Assembly: GCA_947303465.1 (NCBI GenBank)
Contig: CAMYYI010000005.1
Coordinates: forward strand, 1 to 64,000
Length of the DNA stretch: 64,000 nt
DNA from: an uncultured Bacteroidales bacterium
GTDB lineage: Bacteria > Bacteroidota > Bacteroidia > Bacteroidales > UBA932
Direction: 5' to 3'
Part shown: positions 2 to 46,119 of the stretch, piece after piece
Position numbering within the stretch: the first letter of the stretch is position 1
How the letters are laid out: the number at the start of each line of letters is the position of its first letter
Notes under the pieces: generated by a model
Told to the model about the DNA's origin: nothing
Databases searched by the model: none
What the model saw: only the letters and a program-made list of their open reading frames with translations
Made by a program: the position numbers and the translations under genes

Positions 2-607
2 TGGAGCCAGTGGACACAGGAAGAAATGGACAACTTCAAGACCCGTGACGTGCTGCTGGTACGCGGAACGATAGATGGGGAGTTGTTCGGTATTTTCGTC
101 ACCCATCTTCCTTCCAGGATCGGCGGCAAGGGCGCCGACCTCAGGCCCAGGGGGGCGGAGATCATTTATAACAGAGCGATGGAACTTCAGAAGGAGTTTC
201 CCGGCATCAAGATAGTGGTAATGGGAGATATGAACGACAATCCCACTGATCCCAGCATGACCGAGTTCCTCCGCGGCAAGGAGTTCCGCGAGGAGGTGAC
301 CGACGAGGACTTCTTCGACCCGTTCCTGAGCATGATCAAGGCGGGTTACGCTTCCCTGTACTATCAGGGCGGCAATAACATCTTCGATATAGTGATGGTG
401 AACAACGCCCTTGCAAACGCCCCCGACGGGACTTTCGAGATCCAGCCCATCGTAAAGCAGAAGTACTACGGACGTATCTTCGCAAAACCTTTCATGACCA
501 ATCAGAGCGGTCAGTACAAGGGAACGCCTTTCCGTACTTTCTCCGGTGGTTCGTTCATTGGCGGGTATTCCGACCACTATCCCACCTACATTGTAATCAG
601 GAAGTAG
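2..607 (+). CDS. endonuclease/exonuclease/phosphatase family protein (5' end outside window)
   Basis: Open frame from the window edge. Motifs FGIFVTHLPSR, VVMGDMNDNP and GGYSDHYPTYI fit the DNase I/EEP fold. Confidence 0.85.
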   Translation, partial: WSQWTQEEMDNFKTRDVLLVRGTIDGELFGIFVTHLPSRIGGKGADLRPRGAEIIYNRAMELQKEFPGIKIVVMGDMNDNPTDPSMTEFLRGKEFREEVTDEDFFDPFLSMIKAGYASLYYQGGNNIFDIVMVNNALANAPDGTFEIQPIVKQKYYGRIFAKPFMTNQSGQYKGTPFRTFSGGSFIGGYSDHYPTYIVIRK

Positions 608-632
608 ATTCTTCGCTTCGCTCAGAATGACA
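606..632. repeat. dispersed short repeat, intergenic copy (agattcttcgcttcgctcagaatgaca)
   Basis: Near-identical (one strand or the other) to copies at 26485-26514 and 44248-44275. Confidence 0.8.
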
Positions 633-13254: not shown

Positions 13255-13346
13255 ATAGCCAAAAGCGGCAGACCCCGATCGATTTTGAAAATGCGCAGCA
13301 TTTTTGTATCATGAGCGAGGGGGTCTGCCGCTTTTGGCTATTTTTT
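13255..13346 (+). terminator. long-stem intrinsic terminator-like hairpin
   Basis: Perfect 22-bp arms atagccaaaagcggcagacccc (13255-13276) and ggggtctgccgcttttggctat (13320-13341), then T6. Confidence 0.75.
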
Positions 13347-30936: not shown

Positions 30937-32332
30937 GATCGTACGACCAACGGTTAAGGAGCGAAGCGACCAGGGGGGTGTCGGGGGGAACGCTTGCAGC
31001 GTTCGCCAACACGTTGCCCCCCGGCCGCAAGCAGCCGACCCCTCAGGGGTCTGTCCCCTGGGGGTGCAGGGGGATAGTCCGGGGACATTATCTCTCGAGA
31101 TAATGTCCCCTGCAGGGAACTTTGAGTGCCTTCAGGCGGCCATCCAGGGGGGTGCCGATTCCGTTTACTTTGGCGTAGGACGCCTTAACATGCGCTCCCA
31201 CAGCGCCAACAACTTCGCCCCCGAAGACCTGGCAGAAGTGGTGCGCATATGCCACAATGCCGGCGTCCGAGCCTACCTCACGCTGAATATAGTCCTTTAT
31301 CCCGAAGACCTTCAACCTATGCGGGAGGCACTGGATGCGGCTCAGGCTGCCGGCGTAGATGCAGTCATAGCATCCGATATCGCTGCCATAGAATATGCCC
31401 GGAACGTGGGCCTGGAGGTCCATATTTCAACCCAACTCAATATCTCCAACGTCGAGGCCCTTAGGTTTTATGCCCGCTGGGCCGATGTGGTGGTGCTGGC
31501 CAGGGAGCTCAACCTTGACCAGGTAAAGGAAATCTACGAGGCTGTGGGCAGGGAAGGGATTTGCGGCCCTTCAGGTAAACCGGTAAGGATAGAAATGTTT
31601 GCTCATGGGGCGCTGTGCATGGCCGTCAGCGGCAAATGCTATCTGAGCCTCCATGCTTACGGCTCTTCCGCCAACCGCGGTGCGTGTATGCAGATATGCC
31701 GCCGCGGATACGAGGTGCGCGACCTGGAGACCGGCTACACCATGGATATCGACAACAAGTATATCATGTCCCCCAAGGACCTGTGTACCATTGAGTTCAT
31801 GCAGCGCATAGTGGACAGCGGAGTGAGGGTGTTCAAGATAGAGGGGCGTGCCCGAAGTGCAGAATACGTGAAGCGTACTACGGAATGCTACCGCAAGGCC
31901 GCTGATGCCATATGTTCCGGGAGTTACTCTCCGGAGCTTGCGGCAACGCTGAAGGACTCTCTTGCGGAGGTGTTCAACCGCGGCTTCTGGGACGGCTACT
32001 ATCAGGGCGCTTATCTGGGCCAGTGGAGCGAGATTTACGGCTCCCACGCCACCAGGCGCAAGGTTTACTGCGGCAAGGTGAGCAACTGGTTCGACCGCAT
32101 CGACGTGGCGGAAATAAGCGTTGAGGCTACCCCTCTGAGCGTGGGTGACGAAATAATGATAATAGGTGCGACCAGCGGAGTCACCCAGCTCACGGTCAGT
32201 GACATGCGGGTTAATCTCAAGCCCTGCTCCAGGGCGGAAAAAGGCGAACGTTGTTCTGTAGCTATTCCGCCGGCTCCAGGTGCAGAACATGTCCGCCGCG
32301 GCGATAAAGTGTTTCTCTGGGTAGAAGCCTAG
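30929..32332 (+). CDS. peptidase U32 family protein with N-terminal in-frame repeat insertion
   Basis: MSPAGNFECLQAAIQGGADSVYFGVGRLNMR and YLSLHAYGSSANRGACMQICRR. Start ATG at 30929 overlaps the S41 stop. Confidence 0.9.
   Translation: MNKIVRPTVKERSDQGGVGGNACSVRQHVAPRPQAADPSGVCPLGVQGDSPGTLSLEIMSPAGNFECLQAAIQGGADSVYFGVGRLNMRSHSANNFAPEDLAEVVRICHNAGVRAYLTLNIVLYPEDLQPMREALDAAQAAGVDAVIASDIAAIEYARNVGLEVHISTQLNISNVEALRFYARWADVVVLARELNLDQVKEIYEAVGREGICGPSGKPVRIEMFAHGALCMAVSGKCYLSLHAYGSSANRGACMQICRRGYEVRDLETGYTMDIDNKYIMSPKDLCTIEFMQRIVDSGVRVFKIEGRARSAEYVKRTTECYRKAADAICSGSYSPELAATLKDSLAEVFNRGFWDGYYQGAYLGQWSEIYGSHATRRKVYCGKVSNWFDRIDVAEISVEATPLSVGDEIMIIGATSGVTQLTVSDMRVNLKPCSRAEKGERCSVAIPPAPGAEHVRRGDKVFLWVEA
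30945..31110. repeat. GC-rich multi-hairpin insertion at the 5' end of the U32 gene
   Basis: Perfect palindrome ggggacattatctc-tc-gagataatgtcccc (31081-31110); gaacgc-ttgca-gcgttc; gacccc-tca-ggggtc. CACGTTGCCCCCCGGC resembles the gpmI and MFS elements. Confidence 0.75.
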
Positions 32333-32834: not shown

Positions 32835-32862
32835 GTGCCCATAATCATGGCTATTTCGGCAC
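32835..32862. repeat. REP-like palindrome copy A
   Basis: gtgcccataatcatggctatttcggcac. Confidence 0.8.
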
Positions 32863-32885
32863 GGCAATCTTTTTTTATCAGATTC

Positions 32886-32913
32886 GTGCCCATATTCATG
32901 GCTATTTCGGCAC
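32886..32913. repeat. REP-like palindrome copy B
   Basis: gtgcccatattcatggctatttcggcac; 26/28 identical to copy A, 51 bp apart. Confidence 0.8.
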
Positions 32914-32961
32914 GTTTTGATATATTTGAGAGCGGATAGCACAAACTGCTATTATTAAACT

Positions 32962-33888
32962 ATGAAAACTTTATCTTTTTCTGAAAAAGAGCGTGTATGT
33001 GAATACAGCTTTCTGAAAAATGGTCCCTACTGGCATGTGGCAACTCCAGGAGCGACTACCGAAATCATTTTTACATGTCCTGATGAATTCAGGTTCGGAA
33101 TGACCCTGATGGCCGAGTCGGCGTTATCGTGTAATCTACGGGTGTACAATTTCGAATTGATGTCCAATCACTTGCATTTGATTGTGTCGGCGGACAAACA
33201 GCAGTGCATGGATTTTCTGGCGTACTATCGCAAACGTCTGATTCGTTATGCTCATGAGAATGAACGAACCCTTAATCTGAGCTCTTTCGTCTGCGAACCG
33301 CTTAAGATTGATACTCTTGATTCGCTCAGAAACAACATTTCTTATGTCAGCCGCAATGGTTTTGTTGTTAACTCGGCTTACACTCCTTATTCATATCCTT
33401 GGGGAGCGGGCCACCTTTATTTTCTACCGGATTCATATCCTTTGGGAGCCGTCCTTTATAATAGCCTGAGCAGAGACAGGAAAAGGCTCCTGACGCATAG
33501 CCGGACATTATTACTCCCGGATTCATATACTGTTCGTGACGGGTACATTACTCCTGAGAGTTTTGTGGATTATCATACCGGAATGAGCTTTTTTCGCGAT
33601 GCCCATCACTATTTTTACTCTATTACAAAAAAGTTTGAGAGTTATGCCGAGTTTTCTTCCAGGTTTAGTGATATGGTTACTTTAACCGATGAGGAAATGT
33701 ATGCTGCCGCAGCATCTCTGTCAAGAAATCGGTACAATATGGATAAACCATTGACTTTGAATAATTCGGACAAGATACAATTGGCCAAAACACTCCACTT
33801 TGAATACAATGCCTCAAACTCTCAGATACAAAGAATTCTAAAACTTGGGAAAGAAACCGTGAGTGGGCTGTTTCCAGAGGCTCGCTGA
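32962..33888 (+). mobile_element. REP-associated tyrosine transposase (RAYT, IS200-like Y1 transposase domain)
   Basis: NFELMSNHLHLIVS HUH motif, IIFTCPDEFRFGMT core; flanked by REP-like palindromes on both sides. Confidence 0.85.
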
Positions 33889-33992: not shown

Positions 33993-36377
33993 CTATTTAA
34001 CGGTGAACTGAACTGCCCGTGAGGCCCCGGTTGCGTCCATGACCACAAGTACATGCCTGCCGGGCGCCGGATGCACCAGCAGGTCGTGTTCTCCTCGGGT
34101 GGTGCCGAGATAGTCGTCGTCCAGATGCCAGTAAAGCAGAGCGGACGGATCCCGGTGGGCTGCACGCACTATCATGCCTTGTTCCTGTCCGTCAAGTCCT
34201 ACCGTGGTCACTACGGTGATGCCCTGCTGAGGATATATTATCTCTATGGGATTGCCATTCTCGGAGGCCGAGTCAAAGTCGGGATGCTTGGGAGGTAACG
34301 GCCTGTAATCCAGATGGTTCTTCATGTAGTACCATTCCATGGCCGGAGGCAGCACGAACCATACTTTCTCCACCATCTTCTCAACCGGGTAGCAGCTGCT
34401 GTTAACCTGTACCTGCCCGTCTGCGTCCAGATGAACGATGCGGTGATAGCGGCACTCGTCAGGCCTCCGCTCTATGTCCGGCACCCATACTGTATCGCGA
34501 TCGGGGCAGATCCGGGAGGCCGGCAGCCCGCTCTGGCGGCACACCACCAGCGGAACCATCTCTTCAATCGGCTTACGGAACCATTCCGACGGCGGCAGCG
34601 CGGCGAAAACGTCGAACATGACGGGGGCTGCATAACCTACTCCGGTCATTTGGGCTCGGCCTTCACCGTCGCTGTTGCCAACCCATACACCTACCACGTA
34701 ATCCGGAGTAACGCCAACGCTCCAGGCATCCCTGTTACCCCAGCTGGTACCGGTTTTCCATGCCACCTTTCGGCCGGAACTGAAGCCCATCCAGCTCGAT
34801 TCCTCCTCCGGGCGATTGGCCTTCGCCAACGCCTCGAACGTCAACCAGATCGCCGCCTTTGACAGCGGCTCGTCGGACTTCGGAGGGGGTAGTGGCCCTG
34901 GTCCGGTACGCCCCTTCGGGGCTATCCCTCCCAGCCTGTCGGCCGGGCCCCTCCCGTTCACGTGGTCACGGGCGGCCACGCCGTCCAGGGCCACTACCCC
35001 CTCCTCGTCCGGCTCCGCCGTCAGTTCGCGGGCCATGTCGCAATAAACTCCTACCAGATCCTCCAGAGTAATCTCCGCACCTCCCAGGATAAGCGAGAGA
35101 CCGTAATGGTCGGCATCCCGGGTAATGGTCGTGAACCCCAATTCCTTAAGAAGTTCCAGGAACCTCCCGGCCCCATACTGTTCCAACATACGCACCGACG
35201 GCACGTTAAGCGAACGTGAAATCACTTCCGATGCCGGAACAGCACCGTCAAAGCTGCGGTTGAAGTTATGCGGAGCGAAGTTGTTGTAGTTGTACGGGGT
35301 ATCCTTAATTAGTGTGCCGGGCAGAATCTGGCCGTCCTGCAGCATGGCGGCGTACAGCAGCGGTTTGAGGGTGCTGCCGCTGGATCGTGCCGCCGGAATC
35401 ATGTCAACGGAAGCCCCGCGGAGGCCGTCCGCCAGCCCTATGGTGTTGCCATAGTAAGCCAGCACCTCGCCGCTCCTGACGCTGCGCACCAGTATTCCCA
35501 TATTGTCCACCATGTTGCTGTGGTACATGCCAAAATACGAGCGGGCAACAGCGTTTACCCTGTCTTGAAGGGCCGCATCCACGGAACAGCTGTAAGCTTT
35601 GTCGCCTCCTTCCGCCCTGAGGCGCTCAAGCAGATGGTAGGCCTTGTCCGGCATGGGCAGGGGCTTCTCCGGCAGGGGCTCGTCTTTAGCCAGGGTACAT
35701 TCCGTTTCGTCTATGGTTCCGTTGGCTGATAATTTATCCAACAAGAAGTTGCGCTTCTCCAGCAGCTTCTGCCTGTTTCTGCCGGGATGTATAAGGGCGG
35801 GGGAGTTGGGCAGTACCGCCAGCATAGCGCTCTCGGCCCAGGACAGCTCGTCAGCCGGCCGTCCGAAATAGCGCCAGGCCGCGGCCTCGAGTCCTACCAC
35901 ATTGCCTCCGAAAGGGGCGTTAGATGCATACAGCAGGAGGATTTCCGGTTTACGGCAGCGCATCTCCAGACGCGTGGCGAGCACCGCCTCCAAAAGCTTC
36001 TCGGGAATGTTTCTGGGAGCTTCCGGACGGCTCAGGCGAATCACCTGCATGGTGATGGTACTGGCGCCGCTCACTACGCCGCCCTGTTTCAGGTTCTGCC
36101 TCAATGCCCTCCCTGCAGACAGGAAATCCACTCCTGGGTGCCATGTAAAACGCTTGTCTTCATAGCACACTATGCATTTGGCGAATTTCTCGGGAACAGA
36201 CCCAGCCGGAGGGAAATGCCATTGTCCGTCAGCCGATATCCTGGCTCCCAGAAGGACTCCGTCCTTATCCGTGAGAACGGCGCTCACAGGAGGGTCGAAG
36301 AGCTTCCCCGGCAGACAGAAAATATATAGTGCCAGCAGGGGAGATAGAATCAATAATAATTTCGTACCTTTGGACAT
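33993..36377 (-). CDS. pbpC: penicillin-binding protein 1C with in-frame palindromic insertion
   Basis: Transglycosylase YEDKRFTWHPGVDFLSAGRALRQN; transpeptidase GSTLKPLLYAAML; WKTGTSWGNRDAWSVG. Confidence 0.94.
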   Translation of the reverse strand: MSKGTKLLLILSPLLALYIFCLPGKLFDPPVSAVLTDKDGVLLGARISADGQWHFPPAGSVPEKFAKCIVCYEDKRFTWHPGVDFLSAGRALRQNLKQGGVVSGASTITMQVIRLSRPEAPRNIPEKLLEAVLATRLEMRCRKPEILLLYASNAPFGGNVVGLEAAAWRYFGRPADELSWAESAMLAVLPNSPALIHPGRNRQKLLEKRNFLLDKLSANGTIDETECTLAKDEPLPEKPLPMPDKAYHLLERLRAEGGDKAYSCSVDAALQDRVNAVARSYFGMYHSNMVDNMGILVRSVRSGEVLAYYGNTIGLADGLRGASVDMIPAARSSGSTLKPLLYAAMLQDGQILPGTLIKDTPYNYNNFAPHNFNRSFDGAVPASEVISRSLNVPSVRMLEQYGAGRFLELLKELGFTTITRDADHYGLSLILGGAEITLEDLVGVYCDMARELTAEPDEEGVVALDGVAARDHVNGRGPADRLGGIAPKGRTGPGPLPPPKSDEPLSKAAIWLTFEALAKANRPEEESSWMGFSSGRKVAWKTGTSWGNRDAWSVGVTPDYVVGVWVGNSDGEGRAQMTGVGYAAPVMFDVFAALPPSEWFRKPIEEMVPLVVCRQSGLPASRICPDRDTVWVPDIERRPDECRYHRIVHLDADGQVQVNSSCYPVEKMVEKVWFVLPPAMEWYYMKNHLDYRPLPPKHPDFDSASENGNPIEIIYPQQGITVVTTVGLDGQEQGMIVRAAHRDPSALLYWHLDDDYLGTTRGEHDLLVHPAPGRHVLVVMDATGASRAVQFTVK
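34882..35004 (-). repeat. 123-bp palindromic element in-frame in pbpC
   Basis: Perfect 20-bp arms ggagggggtagtggccctgg (34882-34901) and ccagggccactaccccctcc (34985-35004). Core on the minus strand: cacgtgaacgggaggggcccggccgacaggctgggagggat. Confidence 0.9.
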
Positions 36378-36401
36378 CAGAAACAAAGATAACCATATTA
36401 T

Positions 36402-40980: not shown

Positions 40981-41946
40981 ATGTGGACTGTCCTGGCAGT
41001 CTTTTCGGCTATCTTGCTGGGTCTTTATGACGCAGCCAAGAAGCAGGCCCTCAAGAAGAACGGCGTTCTTGCCGTTCTTCTTGTGGCAACTGCTCTCTCG
41101 ACCCTTTTTCTTGCTCCTTTCCTCCGCCTGGGGCCAGGTGAGGATCACCTGAAGCTGGCTTTCAAAGCCGTTCTTGTGACGGCTTCCTGGATTTCCGGCA
41201 TGGTGGGATTGAAATTGCTGTCCCTTACCACGGTAAGTATGCTGAAAGGGTCCCGACCGGTGTTCGTGGTGCTTTTTTCAATCCTCTTGTTCGGTGAGAC
41301 TCTCAGCTGGATGCAGTGGGCGGGTGTTGTTATAGTCCTGGCGTCATTGTATATGCTTGGCAGGACGAGCCGTGGAGATGCCACGGTGGAGGTGCGTAAG
41401 GTGGGATTCATATGGATGGGGGTATCCATCATCACCGGGGTTGCCAGTGCGCTGTTCGACAAGCATATCATGCAAGGGATGGAGCCGCTTTTCGTCCAGA
41501 GCTGGACAAACCTCTACATCACGGTACTGCTGGGACTCTGTATCTGTGTTATGTGGCTAATCCGCCGCCGGCAGACTGCCTCTGAGAGACCGTGTCCACC
41601 CTCGGACACGTTAGAGGGAGGGGCCCAGCCTCAGGCTGGGAGGGATGAGCGCAGCGAAGTCTTCCAGAGGCAGTCTGCCGGCGGCTGGAAAGAACAAACG
41701 AAATTCAGCTGGGACTGGACTCTGCTTCTGGTTGCGGTGCTTATAACTGGAGCGGATGCACTGTACTTTTTCGCACTCAAGCAGCCTGGGGCGCTGCTCA
41801 GTGTGGTTTCTGTAATACGCCGCGCCTCCGTCATCGTCGCATTCCTGTGCGGCGCCATCTTCTTCAAGGAAGGAAACATCCGCGCCAAGGCCCTCAACCT
41901 CCTCCTCATGGCCTCCGGCGTCGTGCTCCTTCTGCTTGGAAACTAA
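40981..41946 (+). CDS. EamA/DMT family transporter with in-frame palindromic insertion
   Basis: Multi-TM with SILLFGETLSWMQWAGVVIVLASLYML, typical of EamA. Confidence 0.88.
   Translation: MWTVLAVFSAILLGLYDAAKKQALKKNGVLAVLLVATALSTLFLAPFLRLGPGEDHLKLAFKAVLVTASWISGMVGLKLLSLTTVSMLKGSRPVFVVLFSILLFGETLSWMQWAGVVIVLASLYMLGRTSRGDATVEVRKVGFIWMGVSIITGVASALFDKHIMQGMEPLFVQSWTNLYITVLLGLCICVMWLIRRRQTASERPCPPSDTLEGGAQPQAGRDERSEVFQRQSAGGWKEQTKFSWDWTLLLVAVLITGADALYFFALKQPGALLSVVSVIRRASVIVAFLCGAIFFKEGNIRAKALNLLLMASGVVLLLLGN
41564..41685 (+). repeat. 122-bp palindromic element in-frame in the EamA transporter
   Basis: gccgccggcagactgcctctg (41564-41584) is the exact reverse complement of cagaggcagtctgccggcggc (41665-41685). 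Core cacgttagagggaggggcccagcctcaggctgggagggat. Confidence 0.9.
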
Positions 41947-43188: not shown

Positions 43189-46119
43189 TCAAAGGAGATT
43201 TGCGATGTAAGGGCCCGTAACGGAAGCGGGGTCTTTGGCTACCTGTTCCGGAGTGCCCTGGCTGACTATAAGCCCTCCCTTGCGCCCTCCTTCCGGACCC
43301 ATGTCGATAATCCAGTCCACGCTCTTGAGGATATCGGGATTATGCTCAATGATAATGACGGTATTACCCTGGTCGACCAGTTTCTGGAGTACGCCCAGAA
43401 GTGTTTTTATGTCTTCAAAGTGCAGTCCGGTGGTGGGCTCGTCAAGCATATAGAGCGTATTGCCTGTAGCTTTGCGGAAAAGCTCGGCCGCCAGCTTCAT
43501 GCGCTGGCTCTCGCCTCCGGAAAGGGTTACCGACGATTGCCCGAGATGCACATATCCAAGACCAACGTCTACCAGGGCTTTCAGCTTGGGAGCTATCTTG
43601 GGATGAGCCTTGAAGAATTCATAGGCCTCATTTATAGGCATTTCCAGCACCTCGTTGATATTCTTTCCCTTGTAATGCACGGCCAGCGTATCTTCTTTGT
43701 AACGGCGGCCTCCGCAGGCGTCGCACACAACGTTCACGGATGGCAGGAAGTTCATCTCCACAACCTTCAGCCCTGCTCCCTTGCACTCCTCGCAACGGCC
43801 TCCCGGAACGTTGAAAGAGAAACGTCCGGCACCGAAACCGCGTACCTTGGCGTCCGGCGTCTCTTCGAACAGCCGTCGTATATCGTCGAAGACTCCGGTG
43901 AAGGTAGCCGGGTTGGATCGGGGCGAGCGGCCAATGGGACTCTGGTCCACTTCCACTACCTTGTCTATGAACTCTATGCCCTCTAAGCCGGAGCAGGGGA
44001 GAGGGCTCTCTTTGCTGCGGTTCAGTCTGGCCTTCAGAAGAGGAATCAGGGTATCGTTTACCAGAGTGCTCTTGCCGCTTCCGGACACTCCGGCAACACC
44101 GATGAAGCAGCCCAGCGGGAACGCGACGTCCAGATTCTTCAGATTGTTTCCAGACGCGCCCTTAAGCACCAGCTGGTTCCCGTCGCCTTTTCTCCGTTCC
44201 TTCGGGACTTCGATGGAGCGTCTCCCCATCAGATACTCCGCGGTGATAGATTCTTCGCTGCGCTGAGAATGACAGAGGGAGACAGCGTCGCTGGAGGGGG
44301 CCTCATGCTCCCGGTATCCGTGTCCACCCTCGGACACGTTAGAGGGAGGGGCCCATGAGCGTAGCGGAATGGGAGGGATGAGCCCGCTTAGCGGGCGAAG
44401 ATATCCGGGAGCAGAGGCCCCGTAGGCGGACTCCGGCGAAGTGGAGCCAGGGCCGGAGTAGCAAATCTGTCCGCCGAGGGATCCGGCGCCGGGGCCGACA
44501 TCTACCAGCCAGTCGGCAGCGCGCATGGTCTCCTCGTCGTGCTCCACAACTATTACCGTGTTCCCCTCGTCCCGCAACTTCTTAAGCGACGCGATGAGTT
44601 TGCGGTTGTCTCTCTGGTGCAGGCCGATAGACGGCTCGTCAAGTATATAGATCACCCCGACCAGCTTGGATCCTATCTGCGTTGCGAGCCGGATTCGCTG
44701 GCTCTCGCCGCCGGACAGCGATGCCGTGGCACGGTCGAGCGAGAGATACTCCAGCCCTACGTCCACAAGGAACTGCAGCCTGTCACCCAGTTCCCGCAGT
44801 ACGTCGCGCGCCACTGCCTTGCCGCGTCCTGTCAGCACGCCGTCAAGCGAACGTACCCACTCCAGCAGGTCCGAAATCTCCATTGCGGATACTTCGGTGA
44901 TGGTTTTGCCGTCAATCCGGAAGCAGGATGTCTCCTCCCTCAGGCGGGTTCCGTTACAGACAGGGCAAACGATACGCTCTTCCACATCGCCCACAACGCC
45001 GTCCCAGGTGACCATCTGCATGTCGTTCCCGTCACCTATGCGGTAAAGGTCGTCCGAGCCGTTCACCAGCAGGGATACACACTCCTGCGGCAGATCCTCA
45101 ATTGGGTCGTTGAGCGAGAATCCGTGCTTGCGGGCGATGGCGCGGACTATATCGAACTTGCGGTTGTTGCGCATGGGGCCGAGGGGAACTATGCCTCCTC
45201 CGGCTACGGACTCGCGGGGATCCGGAATGATGGACTCTATCCTCACGTCGGCTACCGTACCCAGACCCTTGCAGTGCGGGCAGTATCCCTCGGGCGAGTT
45301 GAAGGAAAAAGTATGCGGCTGGGGTTCCTGGAGCGAGATGCCGCTCTCCGGGTCTACCAGGTGCTTGGAAAAGTGGCGTAGCGAACCGTCTTCGGCGGAA
45401 AGCACGGCTACGGAGCCCTTGCCCAGAGACAGCGCCGCCGCTACGGAATTACGGACGCGCGACTCGTCTCCCTCGCCGGGCTTCAGTTTATCTACCACCA
45501 GCTCTATGAAATGCGGCTTGTAGCGGTCTACGGCATCTGTCTCCGGCAGCTCGCAGATTTCACCGTCAATGCGGATCTGGGAATAGCCGCGGCGGCGCAT
45601 CTGCTCGAAGAGTTCGCGATAGTGCCCCTTGCGGCCGCGTACCAGCGGGGCCAGGAGTATGCACTTGCGCCCGGCGTACTCGGACAGTATCAGATCTACT
45701 ATCCGGGCATCCGTATAGCGCACCATCTCTTTGCCGCTCACTGGTGAGTAAGCAGTGGAAGCTTTGGCGTACAGGAGTCGCAGGAAGTCGTATATCTCCG
45801 TAATCGTGCCCACTGTGGAGCGCGGGTTGGAGTTGGTGGTCTTCTGCTCTATGGCAATTATGGGGCTGAGTCCGTCTATGCTTTCCACGTCGGGCTTCTC
45901 CAGTATGCCCATGAAGTGCTTGGCATAGGGGGAGAGGGTGTTCATATAACGGCGCTGCCCCTCAGCGTAGATGGTATCAAAAGCAAGCGAGCTCTTGCCG
46001 CTGCCGCTTATGCCTGTGATAACCACGTATTTGCCACGTGGAATATCAACATCTACGCCTTTCAGGTTATGCGCCCTCGCACCCCGTATCTTAATGATTT
46101 CCTCAGCCATACAATTCAC
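43189..46119 (-). CDS. uvrA: excinuclease ABC subunit A with in-frame repeat insertions
   Basis: ITGISGSGKSSLAFDTIYAEGQRRY, LSGGESQRIRLATQIGS and GVAGVSGSGKSTLVNDTL. Confidence 0.97.
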   Translation of the reverse strand: MNCMAEEIIKIRGARAHNLKGVDVDIPRGKYVVITGISGSGKSSLAFDTIYAEGQRRYMNTLSPYAKHFMGILEKPDVESIDGLSPIIAIEQKTTNSNPRSTVGTITEIYDFLRLLYAKASTAYSPVSGKEMVRYTDARIVDLILSEYAGRKCILLAPLVRGRKGHYRELFEQMRRRGYSQIRIDGEICELPETDAVDRYKPHFIELVVDKLKPGEGDESRVRNSVAAALSLGKGSVAVLSAEDGSLRHFSKHLVDPESGISLQEPQPHTFSFNSPEGYCPHCKGLGTVADVRIESIIPDPRESVAGGGIVPLGPMRNNRKFDIVRAIARKHGFSLNDPIEDLPQECVSLLVNGSDDLYRIGDGNDMQMVTWDGVVGDVEERIVCPVCNGTRLREETSCFRIDGKTITEVSAMEISDLLEWVRSLDGVLTGRGKAVARDVLRELGDRLQFLVDVGLEYLSLDRATASLSGGESQRIRLATQIGSKLVGVIYILDEPSIGLHQRDNRKLIASLKKLRDEGNTVIVVEHDEETMRAADWLVDVGPGAGSLGGQICYSGPGSTSPESAYGASAPGYLRPLSGLIPPIPLRSWAPPSNVSEGGHGYREHEAPSSDAVSLCHSQRSEESITAEYLMGRRSIEVPKERRKGDGNQLVLKGASGNNLKNLDVAFPLGCFIGVAGVSGSGKSTLVNDTLIPLLKARLNRSKESPLPCSGLEGIEFIDKVVEVDQSPIGRSPRSNPATFTGVFDDIRRLFEETPDAKVRGFGAGRFSFNVPGGRCEECKGAGLKVVEMNFLPSVNVVCDACGGRRYKEDTLAVHYKGKNINEVLEMPINEAYEFFKAHPKIAPKLKALVDVGLGYVHLGQSSVTLSGGESQRMKLAAELFRKATGNTLYMLDEPTTGLHFEDIKTLLGVLQKLVDQGNTVIIIEHNPDILKSVDWIIDMGPEGGRKGGLIVSQGTPEQVAKDPASVTGPYIANLL
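44248..44275. repeat. dispersed short repeat, in-frame copy in uvrA
   Basis: agattcttcgctgcgctgagaatgacag; translated CHSQRSEES on the uvrA strand. Confidence 0.8.
44297..44421 (+). repeat. 125-bp palindromic element in-frame in uvrA
   Basis: ggggcctcatgctcccggtatc (44297-44318) versus gatatccgggagcagaggcccc (44400-44421): inverted with two 1-nt indels. Core ccgtgtccaccctcggacacgttagagggaggggccca is identical to the EamA core. Confidence 0.9.

Follow-up and report, generated by a model that had tools for sequence, protein, structure and literature searches.

In-frame palindromic repeats in essential genes have been described as peculiar to Rickettsia and Wolbachia, both obligate intracellular bacteria. 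Hairpin-bearing inserts within genes are also represented by the byp segments of yeast mitochondria and the segment of T4 gene 60, where the reading frame need not be kept. The Rickettsia palindromic elements (RPE-1 to RPE-7) of the Rickettsiales are repeats of 100-150 bp that occur in frame within conserved genes and also between genes, and the hosts of RPE-4, RPE-6, and RPE-7 include PBP1C, tRNA (guanine-N7) methyltransferase, a DNA polymerase subunit, and an ATP-dependent helicase (PMC2229807, PMC3767692). In the case of Rickettsia gmk, the gene is translated, insert included, into a working protein (PMC2229807). Bacterial MITEs (ERIC, NEMIS/Correia, and RUP) are short mobile elements with inverted repeats, 100-200 bp in length, and code for no enzyme (PMC2229807), and REPs inside genes are known (PMC3733652).

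Here, we studied a palindromic insert in the pbpC gene of an uncultured Bacteroidales bacterium, using as the starting point a 64-kb stretch of its genome (the window). A structured core recurs at dozens of unrelated sites, its presence at any one site varies between species, and it can lie in either orientation at one site. We are fairly confident that these copies represent a non-autonomous, probably selfish, protein-coding palindromic mobile element of about 110-170 bp that works much as RPEs do. The element is apparently mobile, judging by presence and absence between species; its likeness to RPEs is an analogy of size, placement, and published description, and we do not claim that it is an RPE.

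The pbpC insert and its family

The pbpC ORF encodes 797 amino acids, and the insert (Table 1) lies between SLN and KTG in the transpeptidase domain. The catalytic motifs STLK, SLN, and KTGTS are all intact despite the insert, and the alignment of this protein to a solved PBP1A breaks around it. An earlier note on this DNA had described an in-frame peptide interrupting an otherwise typical PBP1C, a description that stands: the quoted peptide is exactly in frame, and, among 61 genomes, insert-free orthologs in three congeners (G004, G023, and G011; 77%-79% identical) have ARELACEEDSTPLGRASIW or a similar sequence, a few residues where the source genome has about 50. The insert is likewise absent from the distant Bacteroidales pbpC orthologs examined, and thus the peptide is not a conserved part of distant PBP1C. 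In the nearest ortholog (G027; 85% identity over the matched part), a copy of the same family occupies almost the identical place in the opposite orientation, with a second repeat behind it.

Table 1. Features of the pbpC locus and further copies of the element in the window
Feature	Position	Strand	Basis or remark
pbpC (PBP1C) ORF, host of the insertion	33993..36386	-	ORF list; Pfam Transgly, Transpeptidase, BiPBP_C
Complete pbpC element, 123 bp	34882..35004	+	Core on + strand, antisense to pbpC; in frame, predicted to be translated as part of EEGVVALDGVAARDHVNGRGPADRLGGIAPKGRTGPGPLPPP
Left arm (P1), copy-specific	34882..34901	+	GGAGGGGGTAGTGGCCCTGG; without further occurrence in the genome
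Right arm (P1')	34985..35004	+	Perfect complement of left arm
P2 hairpin, GCCCC-TTC-GGGGC	34910..34922 (ends approximate)	+	Folding; P2 pairs covary across copies
Conserved core: ATCCCTCCCA, P3 hairpin, GGGCCCCTCCCGTTCACG, P4, pseudoknot	34924..34980	+	Genome-wide recurrence
H-type pseudoknot, CCCGT (5' of P4) with ACGGG (P4 loop)	34952..34979 (ends approximate)	+	Complementarity across cores; pair counts
Second copy, inside EamA-family transporter gene	41564..41685	-	In frame, antisense
Third copy, inside uvrA	44297..44421	-	In frame, sense

The two arms, each of 20 nt and spaced 83 nt apart, are 100% complementary, as the earlier note had stated. Palindromes with arms of at least 13 nt number six in the window, versus zero to one in block shuffles, and that of pbpC is one of three with arms of at least 20 nt. 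The strong mRNA hairpin that had been predicted from these arms was recovered by folding: the sense RNA of the segment reaches -98.4 kcal/mol versus a shuffle mean of -66.2 (z = -7.5), and on both strands the segment folds far more strongly than shuffles.

When the source genome (1.93 Mb) was searched with the pbpC segment, the inner part was found about 20 further times and the arms never. The core, the inner ~75 nt, is present in about 36 copies: a covariance model of it (R1) gives 36 matches at E up to 0.2 and 33 at E <= 0.01, and the motif GGGCCCCTCCC has 32 exact occurrences in the genome versus 0 for a reversed control. From outer arm end to outer arm end, copies measure 110-207 bp, typically about 115-135 bp. 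R1 matches occur in 49 of 61 congeners, with up to 48 copies per genome, and 12 congeners have no detectable core copy. The pbpC insert belongs to a family dispersed throughout the genus, and its explanation is therefore not specific to PBP1C. In an order-wide sample, the core was found in one of about 117 other genera, in three copies (L280-L282, in genome G088 of another family); L280 looks intergenic and is without P2. By the named contigs in a polA search, the group belongs with uncultured Bacteroidales from the guts of ruminants and other animals; one contig carries the name Candidatus Cryptobacteroides, and the genus assignment is our inference. The core has no match in Rfam at gathering score or at E <= 0.5, the element is absent from the phage, plasmid, and viral collections searched, and we found no reports of such elements in Bacteroidales in the open-access literature.

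Other repeats occur nearby. A second family (GGAGCGAAGCGACCAGGGGGGTGTCGGGGGGAACGC ... CCCCTGGGGGTGCAGGGGGATA; window 30954-31078), pieces of which are found at about a dozen further genome sites, continues here into the N-terminal end of a U32 peptidase ORF, and it is a relative of this repeat that stands in frame directly after the palindromic element in pbpC of G027. The repeat TAGATTCTTCGCTTCGCTCAGAATGACA occurs at window 605-632 and 44247-44274, and its latter copy is in frame in uvrA, where it contributes CHSQRSEESI to the protein. Because this copy adjoins the third palindromic element, several repeat families appear to enter the same linkers.

Core structure and evolution at shared sites

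Copies share a layout in which long, copy-unique arms (P1) enclose a small hairpin (P2), CATCCCT, a variable hairpin with CCCA/TGGG closing (P3), CCCCTCCC, and P4 with the pseudoknot. Standard pairs fill 96% of the pair cells in 96 distinct cores, and two-sided changes in core pairs were counted in 179 cells, versus 38 in shuffles, a signal that is abolished by sliding the partner. The core alignment was fitted to the hairpins of the model, whereas the pseudoknot played no part in the fit and was added later; the CCCNN/NNGGG pairing is complementary in 83 of the 88 scored cores, with five pair variants. The arms of different copies have weak similarity only. In a test for the strand of a putative RNA, G-U and A-C pairs numbered 32 versus 65 in the arms and 13 versus 18 in P4. 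Because this test does not settle the strand, and because copies face both ways in genes, action at the DNA level is at least as likely as action at the RNA level.

On the minus strand (e.g., window 34926-34955), GGGAGGGG and GGGAGGG (GGGGGGG in L213/L214) provide four G-runs, a potential G-quadruplex in which P3 would be a loop. Two expanded cores (L183 and G000:C8:33799-33950), perhaps a longer ancestral form, have an extra hairpin of about 50 nt in the 5' strand of P4.

At 26 pairs of orthologous sites, identity is 74% in the flanks, 74% in the arms, and 89% in the core. The arms show 63 two-sided changes that keep Watson-Crick pairs, versus about 9 expected if the two sides were independent; selection on the stem and template-switch correction between the arms would both yield such paired changes. 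Relative to the gene, the core has opposite orientations within many orthologous pairs. For instance, between G023 and G071 it is inverted at four of nine shared sites, at which the flanks are mostly 82%-93% identical. In the clearest cases, L147/L167 and L148/L166, the arms align across the inversion, which supports inversion in place. Overall, the arms of inverted pairs are just modestly above the null, with a mean identity of 68% versus 61% for unrelated pairs. We rejected inverted sites as proof of in-place inversion, since only four of 12 pairs exceed the 95th percentile of the null and the others are compatible with re-insertion.

Site occupancy also varies. The trmB site is empty in G027, G023 has a bare palindrome at the site of the L162 copy, and pcrA of G023 has lost 57 nt of the core in frame. 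The palindrome at the polA site is probably old, because two other relatives (L202 and L206) carry coreless palindromes there. That arms are duplicated target sequence was considered because polA in G027 shares the left arm, and is unproven given these coreless palindromes. As a widespread class of targets, coreless palindromes were set aside because few exist in the window. At 13255-13341 lies a perfect 22-bp palindrome (43-nt loop) that bears no trace of the core.

Taken as a mobile element, the family might behave as follows. A mobilizing enzyme would recognize the single-stranded fold of the core (P2, P3, and the pseudoknot within the P1 stem), and insertions would persist if they preserve the frame and the protein tolerates them. 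At a later stage, exchange between the arms, by recombination or template switching, would flip the core and keep the arms complementary, and deletion across the stem would remove the core and leave coreless arms. In a bolder version, the pseudoknotted core alone transposes, gains fresh copy-specific inverted-repeat arms at each site, and then inverts in place; we regard this as possible but doubtful. If true, this would make it a mobile element of a new kind, with termini that are not inherited and a structure-recognizing enzyme that is yet to be named. Two points run counter to the main reading as a selfish mobile element: core conservation at orthologous sites could fit a cellular function instead of selfishness, and the weak similarity of arms between copies leaves their origin at insertion unexplained.

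The first of these points favors a domesticated structured site, either protein-binding DNA or regulatory RNA, selected by the host and dispersed like REPs or chromosome-organizing repeats. Such selection would account for a core conserved above its flanks and arms and for a pseudoknot that covaries, yet site occupancy varies between close species, the 12 congeners noted above have no detectable copy, orientation relative to genes shows no strong preference (24 sense and 15 antisense), and many copies are within genes rather than between them. We consider this explanation unlikely.

Mobilization, reading frame, and translation

The ends of the element offer little by which to recognize a mover. 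Target-site duplications are absent in 63 of 94 copies and are 1-3 nt long in the rest, with boundaries that depend on arm detection. No conserved terminal sequence was found in these copies: end tetranucleotides are dispersed, the commonest occurring six to eight times among the 94.

Y1 transposase genes are present in 43 of 49 element-bearing genomes versus three of 12 element-free genomes (Fisher p = 4.5e-5; Spearman 0.49, both computed without correction for phylogeny or assembly completeness). RVT_1 and DDE_Tnp_1 have no significant link with presence of the element. A reverse transcriptase was rejected as the mover because RVT_1 is undetected in seven of nine copy-rich genomes, and a DDE transposase because it shows no correlation with the element. 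Searched with the core model, 17 Y1-containing regions gave no strong match and two weak ones, in L294, upstream of a Y1 gene, and the Y1 loci of four genomes yielded no adjacent autonomous partner of the element. Several Y1 loci have short palindromes of their own. A trans-acting Y1/HUH transposase is the likeliest mobilizer, a weakly supported step of the proposed mechanism; mobilization by Y1 is a lead and not a result, because the correlation is uncorrected for phylogeny and completeness and the Y1 loci are without a strong core match.

Y1 genes at L293 and L298 are flanked by palindromes with GGGAGGG, the G-tract of the element's minus strand, which is possibly coincidence. In the window itself, an ORF at 32962-33888, resembling a Y1/HUH transposase, has an HxH motif, is not recognized by Pfam, and lies about 1 kb from the element; 29-nt direct repeats stand upstream of it (32835-32863 and 32886-32914) and a palindrome downstream.

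This neighboring ORF invites the reading of the element as a RAYT-type REP or REPIN with a GTAG or CGTC tag, moved by the adjoining gene, and the correlation of Y1 families with the element points the same way. Against this, no conserved GTAG or CGTC end was found, the palindromes at several Y1 loci are their own and not the element's core, and pbpC of G027 bears the element with the neighboring Y1 ORF absent there. For the last reason, together with the missing strong core match beside Y1 loci, the adjoining ORF was rejected as the cognate mover, and the REP/REPIN reading is improbable.

Using codon usage trained on the window, we assessed the reading frame of 94 copies (seven genomes) by testing outward from each copy for an open frame; this approach replaced a short-window codon-usage frame test, which was too weak. 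Same-strand coding DNA lies on both sides of 27 copies, and 26 of these are in frame and open. The lone exception (L080) is intergenic, located downstream of one gene's stop and upstream of the start of the following, co-directional gene; thus, truly intragenic two-sided copies are in frame in 26 of 26 cases. The chance of this would be 3^-26 if frames were random, a figure to be read in light of the fact that orthologous copies are not independent. By family models, hosts include TsaB, PolA, TrmB, TilS, Fmt, UvrA, PcrA, a SpoU-type methylase, a radical-SAM/UPF0004 protein, and EamA, and copies lie mostly in linkers of conserved genes. All six frames are in use, and the frame that meets a TGA in CGTGAACG is used by one copy only, whose core variant is without the TGA. 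The element is predicted to be open to translation: strict retention of frame and avoidance of the stop-containing frame argue for a translated peptide and against splicing or bypassing.

Essential genes interrupted by strongly structured, pseudoknotted RNA are what might be expected of removal or skipping at the RNA or ribosome level, by a mini-intron or by bypassing like that of T4 gene 60 or the yeast mitochondrial byps, in which case no peptide would be made from the insert. Neither excision nor bypassing requires a segment to preserve frame or avoid stops, yet all 26 copies do; an RNA signal would need one orientation, whereas both occur; and the pcrA deletion in G023 is itself in frame. 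We therefore judge skipping very unlikely. Replication template switching at each site, with no mobility, is suggested by copy-specific arms that are perfectly or nearly perfectly complementary and by coreless palindromes at some sites, and it may keep the arms in step, but a core of about 75 nt with a pseudoknot at dozens of unrelated loci is beyond in-place events, making it a highly improbable origin. Finally, an assembly artefact comes to mind because the genomes of the genus are mostly MAGs and short inverted repeats are prone to misassembly of orientation, and we give it almost no credence, given that 49 of 61 species genomes contain the family, among them an eight-contig assembly (G016, 38 copies), and that at sites shared by several species the arms have diverged in parallel with the flanks.

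Comparison with known palindromic repeats

Like the byp and T4 gene 60 segments, the Bacteroidales element is a hairpin-bearing insert in a gene; unlike them, it keeps the frame. The terminal repeats of MITEs are conserved, and a target duplication usually accompanies them; neither feature was found in the Bacteroidales element, where arms differ between copies. With REP/REPIN-RAYT systems it shares multi-copy, dispersed palindromic DNA in genomes where Y1 genes are common, but it is without the GTAG/CGTC tag, its arms are much longer, and no strong core match was found beside Y1 genes.

Of the known kinds, RPEs come nearest, and the likeness extends to element size, in-frame insertion in conserved genes, and shared host families (including PBP1C and tRNA (guanine-N7) methyltransferase). 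In contrast to RPEs, the Bacteroidales element belongs to another phylum and has copy-specific arms, an internal core with a covarying pseudoknot, and core inversion at orthologous sites. The covarying core provides a handle for finding the moving enzyme, which is unnamed in the cited RPE papers (PMC2229807, PMC3767692). For annotation, dozens of conserved proteins in the genus contain repeat-encoded segments, and the many natural pairs of essential enzymes with and without an insert make the cost of inserts testable. In these gut Bacteroidales, an apparently mobile repeat recurrently lengthens protein genes outside the setting of Rickettsia and Wolbachia.
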